NCBI RefSeq assembly: GCF_021353235.1
Contig: NZ_JAJTWT010000001.1
Location: 620,001 to 684,000, forward strand
From: Pelomonas caseinilytica
GTDB taxonomy: Bacteria; Pseudomonadota; Gammaproteobacteria; Burkholderiales; Burkholderiaceae_C
Reading direction: 5' to 3'
DNA: 64,000 nt
Positions 43,526 through 54,596 of this stretch are shown in pieces. Each line of letters opens with the position of its first letter. The first letter of the stretch is position 1. A program made the position numbers and the translations under genes. The notes beneath the pieces were generated by a model, which was given only the letters and a program-made list of their open reading frames with translations, did no database searches and was not told the origin of the DNA.

Positions 43526-44161
43526 ATGGCCCAGCTTTTCGAAGTCCACCCCGACAACCCCCAGCTCCGATTCCTGCGCCAATGCGCCCAGATGCTGCAG
43601 GCCGGCGGCCTCGGCGCCATCCCGACGGATTCCAGCTACGCCTTCGTCTGCCACCTCAACGACAAGGCCGCCGCCGAGGCGCTGCGCCGGGTGCGCGGCG
43701 TCGACGAGAAGCACCACCTGACGCTGCTGTGCCGCGACCTGTCGGAGCTGGCCACCTACGCCATGGTCGACAACCGCCAGTACCGGTTGCTCAAGCTCGC
43801 CACGCCCGGCCCCTACACCTTCATCCTGCCGGCGACCAAGGAAGTGCCGCGGCGCCTGTCCCACCCCAGCCGCCGCACCATCGGCCTGCGGGTGCCCGAC
43901 CACCGCGTGACGCAAGACCTGCTGGCCCTGTTCGGCGAGCCGCTGCTGTCGACCACCCTCATCCCGCCCGGCGAAGGCGAGCCCATGAACGACGCCGCCG
44001 ACGTCTGCGCCCGGCTGGACCGGCAGCTGCAGTTCGTGCTGGATGCCGGCGCCTGCCCGGCCCAGCCCACCACCGTGCTGGACCTCAGCCAGGGCGGGGA
44101 GCCCGTGCTGGTGCGCCAGGGCCGGGGCGATCTCGCCCGGCTGGGTTTGCAGCTCGACTGA
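43526..44161 (+). CDS. Sua5/YciO/YrdC-family protein (YciO-like)
   Basis: A 211-residue YrdC-fold protein. GGLGAIPTDSSYAFVC is the ATP-binding start, then RRVRGVDEKHHLTLLCRDLSELATYA and TPGPYTFILPATKEVPRR, and VPDHRVTQDLLALFGEPLLSTTL. The LLCRDLSELSTYA-type segment resembles YciO more than TsaC. TsaC/Sua5 members make threonylcarbamoyl-AMP for the tRNA t6A modification; YciO's activity is less clear. It is 10 bp downstream of the PHP gene. Confidence 0.85.
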   Translation: MAQLFEVHPDNPQLRFLRQCAQMLQAGGLGAIPTDSSYAFVCHLNDKAAAEALRRVRGVDEKHHLTLLCRDLSELATYAMVDNRQYRLLKLATPGPYTFILPATKEVPRRLSHPSRRTIGLRVPDHRVTQDLLALFGEPLLSTTLIPPGEGEPMNDAADVCARLDRQLQFVLDAGACPAQPTTVLDLSQGGEPVLVRQGRGDLARLGLQLD

Positions 44162-44304
44162 GCCGCCCATCCCGCCTTCCTGCAGTTCATCCAGCGCCGC
44201 TGGCGCTTGATCGCAGGCGCCTGGAAGGCCGCAGTCTCATTGCCGAAACTGACTCCATCGATACAGCAATACCGCTGTTCGACACCCACCGAACGGAGTC
44301 CATC

Positions 44305-44577
44305 ATGAGCCTGCAAACCACCCTCTTCGCCGCCATCGTCCTGGCCCTGTCCACCGCCGCCCAGGCCGCCCCGCAAGCCACCATCAAGCTCGAGCGCGTC
44401 GTCGTCACCGGCAAGGCCGTGCGCGAAGTCGCCCAGCTCCCGCGCGTCGTCGTGACCGGCTATGCTCAGCGCGACGTGGCCCAGCTGCCGCGTGTCGTCG
44501 TCACCGGCTACAGCGAAGGCACGCTGCTGCGCAACACCACCCTGGCCGCCGCCAAGAGCCCGGCCAAGCGCGGCTGA
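44305..44577 (+). CDS. Small secreted peptide with three TonB-box-like repeats
   Basis: A 90-residue protein with a signal peptide (MSLQTTLFAAIVLALSTAAQA, cleavage likely after A21 or A22). The mature part begins PQATIKLERVVVTG. Two 16-residue repeats (31-46 and 47-62) and a partial third (63-68 and on) read RVVVTG[K/Y]A-x-R-[E/D]-VAQLP and then RVVVTGYSEG. R-VVVTG is the usual N-terminal segment (TonB-box region) of TonB-dependent receptors. There is no barrel domain. Repeat unit is 48 bp in DNA. No known family is recognised. Confidence 0.65.
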   Translation: MSLQTTLFAAIVLALSTAAQAAPQATIKLERVVVTGKAVREVAQLPRVVVTGYAQRDVAQLPRVVVTGYSEGTLLRNTTLAAAKSPAKRG

Positions 44578-44619
44578 AGCGGACGTGCACCGATGCGAAT
44601 GACGCCCACTTCCACCACC

Positions 44620-44670
44620 GCCGAGCCGAGTCGCCAGCGCTGCTGAGCAGCGTTGCCGACTCGGCTTGGC
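44620..44670. terminator. Long hairpin between convergent genes
   Basis: A 14-bp outer stem (44620-44633 with 44657-44670; one G-U type pair) and an 8-bp inner stem (44636-44643 with 44647-44654) with a small internal loop form a 51-nt hairpin. It lies between the convergent ends of the repeat-peptide gene (44577) and the glutaredoxin-like gene (44681). No T-run is evident on either side, so a bidirectional terminator or transcript-stabilising element is inferred. Confidence 0.5.
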
Positions 44671-44680
44671 CTCGTGCCTG

Positions 44681-45016
44681 TCACTTCAGGATCTCGCGCA
44701 GCCGCGCGCGGTCGAAGCCGATGACGCGCTGGCCGCGCACCAGCAGCGTCGGCGTGCCCGCCGCGCCCAGGGCCTGGTAGTCGGCCAGGCATTGCGCGTC
44801 GCGTTCGATGAAGCACTCGCTGAAGGGCACGCCCTGCTCCGTCATCCACCGCCGCGCCGCCAGGCAATAGGGGCAGGTCTCGGACGACAGCATGCGGATG
44901 TCGCCCGGCCGCGCATGCTGCGCGAGCCAGGTGCCGTCCTCGGCCCGCACATGGCCGCGCCAGGCCCAGGAGGCCAGGGCCACGACGGCGACGAGGACGA
45001 GCAGCGAGCGGGGCAT
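44681..45016 (-). CDS. Glutaredoxin-like protein, exported or membrane-anchored
   Basis: A 111-residue protein with an N-terminal hydrophobic stretch (SLLVLVAVVALASWAW, residues 4-19) and a glutaredoxin fold: CPYC at 48-51, then ARRWMTEQGVPFSECFIERDAQC, and a cis-proline in AAGTPTLLVRGQRVIGFD. The N-terminal anchor suggests a periplasmic or membrane-bound thiol-disulfide protein. Start at 45016 was chosen because it places the hydrophobic segment at the N-terminus; 45040 would add 8 residues. Confidence 0.8.
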   Translation of the reverse strand: MPRSLLVLVAVVALASWAWRGHVRAEDGTWLAQHARPGDIRMLSSETCPYCLAARRWMTEQGVPFSECFIERDAQCLADYQALGAAGTPTLLVRGQRVIGFDRARLREILK

Positions 45017-52253: not shown

Positions 52254-52619
52254 ATGGACCAAGCAGCGCCAGGCCGCCGGCGGCGAGTTCACAGCGCCGA
52301 GTTCAAGGCGCAGGCCGTGCAGGCCTCGCAGCAGCCAGGCGTATCAATGGCAGCTGTGGCAATGGCTCACGGCATCAACGCCAACCTGCTGCGGCGTTGG
52401 GTCCATGAACGGGTGCAGCCGCCTGCCGACACGGAGACTGTCAGCGCTAATCCCGTTGGCTTCATCGCGCTGCCGATGCCGACGCCGGCCGAGCCGCCTG
52501 CGCCGAGCGCAGAGCCCATCCGCATTGAGGTCCGCCGCGGCTCGACCGTCATCGCGGTGACCTGGCCAGCAAGCGCTGCCGATGCGTGCGCGGCCTGGAT
52601 GCGCGAGCTGCTGCGTTGA
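52254..52619 (+). CDS. tnpA: IS66 accessory protein TnpA
   Basis: A 121-residue protein: RVHSAEFKAQAVQASQQPGVSMAAVAMAHGINANLLRRWVHE is the helix-turn-helix of IS66 TnpA/OrfA, needed for transposition. The stop overlaps the TTG start of tnpB (52616). The start ATG is 87 bp inside the left end. No frameshift is seen. Confidence 0.9.
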   Translation: MDQAAPGRRRRVHSAEFKAQAVQASQQPGVSMAAVAMAHGINANLLRRWVHERVQPPADTETVSANPVGFIALPMPTPAEPPAPSAEPIRIEVRRGSTVIAVTWPASAADACAAWMRELLR

Positions 52620-52951
52620 TCCGCATAGACGCCGTGTGGCTCGCCACGACGCCACTGGACATGCGCGCCGGAACCGAGACCGCCCTGGCCCGCGTGGTCC
52701 AGGTGTTCGGCGGCGCGAAGCCGCACCATGCCTACCTCTTTGCCAACCGGCGCGCCACGCGCATGAAGGTTCTCGTGCATGACGGCATCGGTGTGTGGCT
52801 GGCGGCGAGGCGCCTGCACCAGGGCCGCTTCGTGTGGCCTCGCGATGTCTCGCTGGAGCAGATGTCGCTGACGCAGCCGCAGCTGCACGCCCTGGTGCTC
52901 GGGCTGCCATGGCAGCGCGTGGAAGACGACGGCGCGATCCGGTTGCTATGA
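52616..52951 (+). CDS. tnpB: IS66 Orf2 protein TnpB
   Basis: A 111-residue protein starting TTG at 52616, overlapping the tnpA stop. Typical TnpB motifs are LDMRAGTETALARVVQVFG and HHAYLFANRRATRMKVLVHDGIGVWLAARRLHQGRFVWP. TnpB is required with TnpA and TnpC for IS66-type transposition. Alternative in-frame start at 52586 would add 10 residues. Confidence 0.9.
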   Translation: MIRIDAVWLATTPLDMRAGTETALARVVQVFGGAKPHHAYLFANRRATRMKVLVHDGIGVWLAARRLHQGRFVWPRDVSLEQMSLTQPQLHALVLGLPWQRVEDDGAIRLL

Positions 52952-53006
52952 CGCAATCGGTGCTCGCGCCGATGCGCGCGGCCCGCGCTCGCACCACACT
53001 GCCGTC

Positions 53007-54596
53007 ATGGCAGTCGCCGCGCCCCTCAGTGCCGAAGACATCGCCTCGCTGGAGGCGGCGGGGCTCGGGCACATTGGCGCCAAGGTGCTTGCACTCCTGC
53101 AGCGGCAGTCGCACGACCAAACCGAGATCGAGTGGCGCGACGCCAAGATCGAGAAGCTAACCTTCGAGATGGCGCAGCTGCGCCGCGTGAAGTTCGGCAA
53201 GAAGAGCGAGCAGCTCGACGCTGAGCAGAGGACCCTGTTCGACGAGGCCGTGGATGCCGACCTCGCTGCCTTGGAGGCACAGCTGGCCGAGCTGATGGCC
53301 GCCAAGCGCAAGGACACCGAGCCCACGCCCGAGCGGCCGAAGCGTGCCGCGTTACCCGCACATTTGCCGCGCGTGGAGCGGCATCACGAACCGAGCGACA
53401 CGACGTGTCCCTGCGGCTGCCAGATGACACGGATCGGCGAGGACGTCAGCGAGAAGCTGGACTACACGCCAGGCAGCTTCACGGTAGAGCGCCATGTGCG
53501 CGGCAAGTGGGCTTGCGCGAAGTGCCGCACGTTGACCCAGGCACCGGTGCCGGCAGAGATCATCGACAAGGGCTTGCCCACCTCGGGCCTGCTCGCTCAT
53601 GTGCTGGTCGCCAAGCACTCGGACCACCTGCCGCTCTATCGCCAAGAAGCGATCTTCGAGCGCGCCGGCCTGGCCATCCCGCGCTCGACACTGGCGGCCT
53701 GGGTGGGCGTGTGCGGTGTACGGCTGCAGCCGCTGGTAGACGCAATGAAGGCCGACCTGCTGCGCCTGCCGGTGCTGCACGCCGACGAGACGCCGGTGGC
53801 CATGCTGGCGCCCGGCACCGGCAAGACCCATCGCGCCTATCTCTGGGCCTACGCCAGCGGCGCCTTCGAGACGATGCGCGCGGTTGTCTACGACTTCACC
53901 GAGAGCCGCTCCGGCCAGCATCCACGGACCTTCCTTGGTCATGGCACGGAGTGCGCCTGGAAGGGCAGCCTCGTGTGCGACGACTACTCGGGCTACAAGG
54001 CGCTGTTCCTCGACGGCGGCATCACCGAGGTGGGCTGCATGGCCCACGCGCGCCGCAAGTTCGTGGAGCTGCACTTGGCCAACAAGAGCACGCTGGCGGC
54101 CACCGCCATCGAGTTCATCGGGCAGCTCTACGGCATAGAGCGGGAAGTGAAGGACCTGCCAGCCGAGGATCGCTTGCGAGAACGACGAACTCGCGCGGCG
54201 CCGGTCGCGCAGGCGCTGCACGAGTGGTTGCTGGAGTTCCGGCCGAAGGTGCCGGATGGCTCGGCGACCGCCAAGGCCATGGACTACAGCCTCAATCGCT
54301 GGGCCGCGCTCACGCGTTACCTCGGCGACCCCGCCTTGCCCATCGACAACAATTTCGACGAGCAGCAGATCAGGCCCTGGGCCACAGGCCGGAAGAACTG
54401 GCTCTTCGCTGGGACGCTCCTCGCTGGACAGCGCGCTGCGGCCATCATGAGCCTCATCCAAACCGCGAAGTTGAACGGGCATGACCCCTACGCTTACCTG
54501 CACGATGTGCTGACGCGGCTACCGACTCAGAAGAACAAGGACCTCGACGGCCTACTTCCTCATCGGTGGAAACCCAACACAATTGAGGCTGGGTAG
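53007..54596 (+). CDS. tnpC: IS66 transposase TnpC
   Basis: A 529-residue DDE transposase. A leucine-rich N-terminal coiled-coil (QSHDQTEIEWRDAKIEKLTFEMAQLRRVKFGKKSEQL), a zinc-binding CPCGC...CAKC, and the catalytic residues D260 (LHADETP), D325/D326 (CDDYSGY) and E452 (DNNFDEQQIRP). C-terminal NWLFAGTLLAGQRAAAIMSLIQTAKLNGHDPYAYLHDVLTRLP is the family end. It appears full length and is followed by the passenger gene, 17 bp later. Confidence 0.94.
   Translation: MAVAAPLSAEDIASLEAAGLGHIGAKVLALLQRQSHDQTEIEWRDAKIEKLTFEMAQLRRVKFGKKSEQLDAEQRTLFDEAVDADLAALEAQLAELMAAKRKDTEPTPERPKRAALPAHLPRVERHHEPSDTTCPCGCQMTRIGEDVSEKLDYTPGSFTVERHVRGKWACAKCRTLTQAPVPAEIIDKGLPTSGLLAHVLVAKHSDHLPLYRQEAIFERAGLAIPRSTLAAWVGVCGVRLQPLVDAMKADLLRLPVLHADETPVAMLAPGTGKTHRAYLWAYASGAFETMRAVVYDFTESRSGQHPRTFLGHGTECAWKGSLVCDDYSGYKALFLDGGITEVGCMAHARRKFVELHLANKSTLAATAIEFIGQLYGIEREVKDLPAEDRLRERRTRAAPVAQALHEWLLEFRPKVPDGSATAKAMDYSLNRWAALTRYLGDPALPIDNNFDEQQIRPWATGRKNWLFAGTLLAGQRAAAIMSLIQTAKLNGHDPYAYLHDVLTRLPTQKNKDLDGLLPHRWKPNTIEAG

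Follow-up and report, generated by a model that had tools for sequence, protein, structure and literature searches.

The window analysed here is a 64,000-nucleotide stretch of Pelomonas caseinilytica DNA (contig NZ_JAJTWT010000001.1, positions 620,001 to 684,000), and the gene in question occupies its positions 44305–44577 (+ strand), encoding a small exported repeat protein of 90 amino acids plus a stop codon, identified by translation, homology search and conservation. Beyond what the initial annotation of this DNA had described, the gene was found to belong to a multi-gene family whose members have a LytTR-type promoter in common and occur together with a LytS/LytTR two-component pair. That the small proteins constitute a real, co-regulated family is virtually certain. 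The most likely reading, to which we assign a probability of roughly 0.3, is that they are LytTR-controlled, disordered periplasmic peptides carrying several TonB boxes, with which they would occupy TonB. The gene, the repeats, the family and the promoter are read from sequence; the location and the binding to TonB we infer.

The protein begins with a Sec-type leader (residues 1–22, 44305–44370, + strand; hydropathy peak at residues 5–19) that ends AQA-AP, with cleavage expected after AQA. This supports the signal peptide proposed in the initial annotation; secretion is predicted from the leader sequence, and a periplasmic location is highly probable. A putative ribosome-binding site, GGAG, is located at 44295–44298 (+ strand). 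The mature part is composed mainly of three TonB-box-like motifs, with 5-residue linkers and a basic tail, and has a net charge of +7. RVVVTG occurs at residues 31, 47 and 63 and so recurs, as had been described, every 16 residues: within the mature part, self-identity stands at 21 for lag 16 and does not exceed 7 for any other lag from 8 to 24, and none of 200,000 shuffles of the mature part had two RVVVTG copies. In the DNA there are three 48-nt direct copies (44387–44434, 44435–44482 and 44483–44530), the second and third of which are 79% and 60% identical to the first. The copies fit the suggested growth by tandem duplication, and since the genus shares three repeats and the wider family two or three, the duplication is old. 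Fold prediction of the mature part from the single sequence yielded an unstructured chain with a predicted local distance difference test (pLDDT) score of 44, and prediction with an 18-row alignment yielded a pLDDT of 61 and zero strands; the mature part is thus predicted, with low confidence, to be disordered.

A homology search of 60 genomes, the window's own included, identified matches in 22, namely the own genome, 19 congeners and two other members of the family defined by the Genome Taxonomy Database (GTDB). The match reaches an E value of 1e-15 or lower in 18 of the 19 congeners (Roseateles/Pelomonas); the exception, G010, is 83% complete and matches with E 0.005. A scan of named genomes located six loci, in Pelomonas, Roseateles and an unclassified Burkholderiales metagenome-assembled genome. 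The window's genome contains five paralogues, one of them weak. On contig C37 lie a group B paralogue (74–96 amino acids in its group, three repeats) and a group C paralogue (92–95 amino acids, two repeats, often with a CVAPAVC-like end), and further paralogues are found at C34:43.0 kb and C12:61.8 kb, the latter being the weak member with one clear repeat and a profile E value of 3.1e-4. With a profile built from group C and two outgroups, 36 of the 200 GTDB-family genomes searched match at E ≤ 0.001. Counted by eye at E ≤ 1e-5, relatives are present in 27 of the 200, in 18 genera; the nine remaining genomes match only at E 1e-5 to 1e-3, several of them with long receptor-looking frames, and were left uncounted. 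In most genomes 26 candidates were scored in this search, so weak members may be missed. Profile A1, run against 250 genomes of the order, gave matches in the window's genome and at a single place in a 939-residue frame, and nowhere else.

Several genomes hold three to eight family matches, often adjacent, and several genomic copies have variable tails. The common core is approximately [KQ]LERVV[VI]xGKR followed by QLPRVV[VI]xGR, and this TonB-box-like core is the best conserved segment of the family. The repeats are kept in relatives as to their core, three across the genus and two or three beyond it, but not as to their exact form: the third repeat reads VVVTG in 4, VVVVG in 9 and VVVIG in 2 of the 15 intact group A sequences, and the period is 20 residues in some orthologues. 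The group A set consists of 16 motif-picked sequences, including one disrupted copy from G012, and does not cover every locus. Among its 120 pairs the proportion of nonsynonymous differences (pN) is lower than that of synonymous ones (pS) in 118, with a median pN/pS of 0.52 for the whole protein with its leader. That the gene is a spurious open reading frame (ORF) or a remnant of a receptor gene might be proposed for a short frame that resembles a receptor N-terminus in a GC-rich genome with many mechanical ORFs; however, the selection on the protein, the conserved promoter, the paralogues and the wide family leave this reading a practically negligible probability. In G012, locus L043 (C16:774000–779500) has three group A copies in a row, one disrupted and one with an N; the DNA upstream of one of the three is unrelated.

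The promoter is the strongest finding of the analysis. Upstream of the small genes, the DNA is similar from genus to genus, and an alignment of 33 promoters reveals three TTCATC-type boxes 20–21 bp apart, a CTGG element and CCGAAACTG. In the window, the composite LytTR-type promoter is matched by model R1 at 44161–44276 (+ strand, E 2.4e-23, this promoter being in the training set). Box 1 (CCCATC, 44166–44171) is weak here and TTCATC-like in relatives; box 2 (GCAGTTCAT) spans 44182–44190 and box 3 (GCGCTTGAT), 12 bp after it, 44203–44211. A weak, putative -35 element (TGGAAG, 44222–44227), assigned by position and alignment, follows box 3 by 10 bp, and a putative -10 element (GAAACT, 44245–44250) follows after a further 17 bp, all on the + strand. 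The 12-bp gap between the boxes, the 10 bp to the -35 element and the 17-bp spacer, from 44182 to 44250, correspond to those expected of a LytTR regulon; an excerpt of PMC6193735 describes LytTR sites as direct repeats that are mostly separated by 12 bp and strongly tend to lie 10 bp upstream of the -35 element. Across 58 promoters, orthologues included, a full box match precedes the -10 element by 38 bp in 49, by 59 bp in 26 and by 79 bp in 30, and full matches at other offsets between 30 and 88 bp number three in all. The 11 group C promoters that were read are without a spacing anchor, 10 being omitted from the alignment and the spacing counts and one, which had been wrongly anchored, being dropped from A3 and from the counts, and three more promoters, one each from G153, G076 and G012, also have no anchor. 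On both strands of the window, only one of 125 -10-like sites, that at 44245, has both proximal boxes in phase. An initial DNA pattern for the boxes proved too loose (137 matches, versus 22 for the reversed control) and was replaced by the promoter profile. Regulation of the small genes by LytTR is well supported at the level of sequence, and control of this type is very probable.

Comparable operators are known. According to an excerpt of PMC11347149, the RcoM1 and CoxC operators are triple LytTR-type direct repeats spaced by 12–13 bp; the RcoM1 box, TTCNNGCA, differs from that of the small-gene promoters in sequence and in targets. The AlgR site, given in an excerpt of PMC4064291 as CCGTTCGTC, is close to the core of the small-gene box, although AlgR sites are there not necessarily phased by 12 bp.

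The promoter model, which uses sequence only, was scanned over the window's genome, where 150 of 17,983 first-look candidates were scored, so that weak members may be missed. Paralogues B, A, D, E and C rank first to fifth; A and B were in the training set, and D (E 5.6e-17), E (2.8e-5) and C (3.5e-5) were outside it. For ranks 6–11 and 13, an ATG that would begin a plausible product is found 83–123 bp after the start of the match, the products being two DUF2807 proteins, an HlyD-type adaptor, a DUF6622 protein, an exported protein with no Pfam match and two LytS-type kinases. For rank 12 and the five lower matches examined (14–18), no ORF start is present at 83–123 bp. The two DUF2807 (head GIN domain) proteins, at L188 (C40:51789) and L193 (C37:187977), are exported and have this promoter type with E 1.4e-4 and 0.005. 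The matches at L195 (C39:226099) and L192 (C37:244209) lie directly 5' of the two LytS-type kinase genes, near LytTR matches at C39:227768 and C37:246724, and a LytTR match also lies 3 kb away from another promoter match, at C2:138091. The matches in front of LytS-type kinases suggest that LytTR systems control themselves and cross-talk with one another.

In nine other genomes, 43 of 51 matches at E < 5e-7, training promoters partly included, precede a family protein, and the remaining 8 have none just downstream; conversely, 9 of 53 places with a family protein are without a promoter match at this threshold. Thirteen loci of other genera that were not used in training (L132, L144–L146 and L149–L157) give a match at the expected place with E ≤ 1.1e-7 in 12 cases, the exception being L154 with an E value of only 0.0026. 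Among 16 genomes that lack the family, the best promoter match is weaker than 1e-5 in 14, the exceptions being G030 (3.5e-10) and G033 (1.7e-6). One of the family-less genomes, G029, has the same promoter type (L291, E 1.5e-5) before an exported protein of ~125 residues, which we take to be similar to DUF4148.

In 16 genomes with the family, each has 4–15 LytTR matches (median 9), and in 16 without it the number is 0–4 (median 2), the latter genomes tending to be smaller and the counts being uncorrected for genome size; the window's genome has 11. The candidate regulator is a LytS/LytTR pair at G000:C37:13725–15578. Of 17 genomes with the family, 15 carry an orthologue of its LytS (G000:C37:13725) at E < 1e-100, whereas none of 16 without the family does (Fisher's test 1.5e-7, uncorrected for relatedness); the 14 other orthologues are 57–68% identical to this LytS. 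The two family genomes without an orthologue are G126, which is 86% complete, and G138. The LytS protein is a polytopic kinase with a few membrane spans, in which only His_kinase and HATPase domains were found. In front of 14 of the 15 LytS genes a box lies 38 bp (12 genes) or 37 bp (2 genes) before a TAAGAT-like -10 element. In 13 of the 15 genomes, no more than 15 kb separate the pair from a small gene (that of G071 was placed by the family profile search), and recQ is always between them (13 of 13). Because recQ, often together with uvrA, shares this stretch, the linkage may stem from an inherited gene order. The C37 LytS operon itself is not among the 90 matches of the promoter model in the window's genome, which, together with the 11 LytTR matches there, makes control of the window gene by this pair likely rather than demonstrated. 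On the strength of the co-occurrence, the pair is probably the regulator of the small genes.

The main rival explanation holds that the small proteins serve LytS/LytTR itself as secreted signal or effector peptides. The system would be a Gram-negative counterpart of the Gram-positive LytTR peptide regulons: LytS would respond to the exported peptide or to fragments of it, and LytTR would raise every copy together with its own operon. Such regulons (HdrR/BrsR and others), as described in an excerpt of PMC6193735, likewise have 9-bp direct repeats just upstream of the -35 element and small exported products, but differ from the present one, which has three boxes, Sec-type leaders, a Gram-negative host and TonB-box-like repeats in its products. 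A signalling role would suit a polytopic kinase with no large sensor domain and a LytTR regulator, the direct-repeat promoters in common, the equally spaced box ahead of the LytS genes, the several scattered short exported products and the closeness of pair and small gene. However, conservation peaks in the TonB-box-like core and not in a variable signal segment, and the invariable recQ in the linked order allows the linkage to be inherited. In addition, the family leaders read by eye are Sec-like and do not contain the double-glycine leader of Gram-positive-type pheromones and class II bacteriocins. We consider this explanation rather unlikely. Clusters of dedicated exporter and immunity genes, such as accompany those pheromones and bacteriocins, were not noticed as recurrent neighbours at 21 loci, a minority of whose neighbours were annotated individually.

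The reading in which the peptides occupy TonB draws on the likeness of the repeats to receptor TonB boxes. An 11-column matrix was derived from 19 receptor TonB-box regions with readable N-termini in the same genome, the boxes being chosen by eye (57 plug matches in the genome, 30 of these loci read, 19 usable). Repeat 1 (KLERVVVTGKA, residues 28–38, 44386–44418) scores 23.6, repeat 2 (QLPRVVVTGYA, residues 44–54, 44434–44466) 15.3 and repeat 3 (QLPRVVVTGYS, residues 60–70, 44482–44514) 16.3, all on the + strand and all within the range of 7.1–32.6 that the receptor boxes span when each in turn is left out, in agreement with the TonB-box character initially proposed. The controls were 56,484 windows from 119 proteins, neighbours of the small genes from which exact family motifs had been removed. 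No control window reaches the score of repeat 1, and the same two reach those of repeats 2 and 3; these two are the TonB box of one receptor in two related genomes, and in one of the genomes the receptor was confirmed by Pfam. Since the boxes were picked by eye and the controls are neighbours of the small genes, the matrix result speaks to likeness and not to function. The likeness extends over ~10 residues, flanking L, E and basic positions included.

Like the N-terminus of a TonB-dependent receptor (Plug PF07715, barrel PF00593), the window protein has an exported leader followed by a [KQ]LExV[VE]VTGxR-like segment, and in this respect, by sequence likeness, it has the TonB box after the leader that marks such receptors. 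Unlike the receptors, it is ~90 residues long with neither plug nor barrel, and the box occurs in two or three copies in the family. Neither domain was found in its 90 residues, for which the sole Pfam match is PF05436 at E 0.052, and the claim that there is no barrel therefore stands. Weak matches in long frames from the 60-genome search include receptors: three of four fetched loci start with a leader and a KLERIEVTG-like box, and in the fourth the motif applied detected nothing.

A tie to TonB-dependent uptake is also favoured by gene neighbourhood. Five of the 13 linked genomes, which represent four genera, have a gene for a TonB-dependent receptor placed between recQ and a small gene (G117, L305; G158, L297; G078, L306; G223, L296; G119, L295), the order being lytS-lytTR-recQ-receptor-small gene, and plug and barrel were confirmed by Pfam in four of the five receptors. 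The receptor gene is convergent with the small gene at a distance of ~20 bp in G117 and G158 and ~100 bp in G078 and G201. The neighbouring receptor may be a partner of the system.

A different explanation of the same repeats is that they are β-strand or adhesive segments of a protein that is produced under envelope stress and protects the envelope or forms a surface structure, and that the resemblance to TonB boxes reflects a common short strand motif. The two DUF2807 proteins and the HlyD-type adaptor next in rank in the promoter scan, which suggest an envelope programme, and the +7 charge of the mature part would accord with such a protein. Nonetheless, the likeness spans some ten residues with their flanking positions, no strand is predicted by the alignment-based model, and a receptor adjoins the small genes in four genera, and we consider such a role rather unlikely.

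Several observations weigh against the proposal that the peptides occupy TonB. The T of VVVTG in the third repeat is replaced in 11 of the 15 intact group A sequences, and the wider family often has E, V or S at this position, where receptor boxes have T in 14 of 19. A proline stands two residues before the first V in repeats 2 and 3, where receptor boxes mostly have E or D. No receptor neighbours the small gene in 8 of the 13 linked loci, that of the window's genome included. G138 has a family gene and its promoter, yet no LytS orthologue. Finally, the promoter class serves other genes in the window's genome as well, and in G030 its match (L289) precedes a 62-residue exported protein without such repeats, which indicates that the promoter class is wider than the family. 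Taking both sides together, it is possible, at somewhat less than even odds, that TonB is the main target.

If the peptides do occupy TonB, LytS would sense the state of the envelope or membrane and LytTR would jointly turn on the scattered small genes. Unstructured peptides with two or three TonB boxes each would then enter the periplasm and engage the C-terminal domain of TonB in the manner of receptor boxes, keeping TonB buffered or withheld from the receptors until the signal ends. Such a system would amount to a natural, signal-controlled TonB brake, in which multivalent peptides from scattered genes lower all TonB-dependent uptake or else make TonB selective for certain receptors, for example those encoded beside the small genes in four genera; this extension in either form is tentative and stands below the reading on which it builds. 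A precedent in kind is the Ton-box pentapeptide ETVIV, which, according to an excerpt of PMC5413942 that cites Tuckman and Osburne 1992, has been added to cells to prevent TonB action. The family proteins would resemble it as free box peptides, but ETVIV is synthetic and external, and the family is encoded by genes, predicted to be exported, and multivalent.

Natural multi-box peptides with a regulator of their own would, if TonB is indeed their target, add a new layer of control over outer-membrane uptake and provide a direct handle on the sharing of TonB among dozens of receptors, which is to our knowledge an open question. Even if TonB is not the target, a family absent from the libraries searched, sharing a single promoter signature and occurring alongside a two-component system in many genera, represents a new regulon.

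TonB-dependent colicins carry TonB boxes, and the small proteins could by analogy be antibacterial peptides that enter relatives through theirs. The several copies per genome with variable tails would be in keeping with this. However, 75–110 residues hold no receptor-binding or toxic domain, the orthologues are very similar throughout the genus, and no recurrent gene that might confer immunity was noticed among the neighbours compared at 21 loci. An antibacterial function is very unlikely.

Searches of Pfam, NCBIfam, PHROGs and PDB yielded no convincing match for the family, and a plasmid collection contained none. Weak matches were set aside, namely PF05436 (E 0.052), two NCBIfam entries (E 0.044 and 0.08) and, for members of A2, DUF6426 (E 0.0021, 3 of 8) and PRK13150 (E 0.0049, 1 of 8). 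No natural stand-alone TonB-box protein turned up in searches of open-licence PubMed Central articles. This family of tiny exported proteins is apparently undescribed: the LytTR regulon and the TonB box are of known kinds, and within the libraries and open-licence literature searched their union in a stand-alone multi-box protein is new.

The window gene is flanked on its 5' side by a Sua5/YciO-type gene and on its 3' side by a convergent glutaredoxin-like gene, and one or both types lie within 1.5 kb of the small gene in 17 of 19 loci, the window's own included. Between the window gene and the glutaredoxin-like gene, an inverted repeat with 25-nt arms (44620–44670, no strand assigned) may serve as a two-way terminator. 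In an Rfam search of 44100–44700, the only match, to a CRISPR repeat, was below threshold and lay inside the neighbouring gene, and was taken as chance. Elsewhere in the window, three consecutive + strand ORFs at 52254–54596 resemble the three genes of an IS66-type element.
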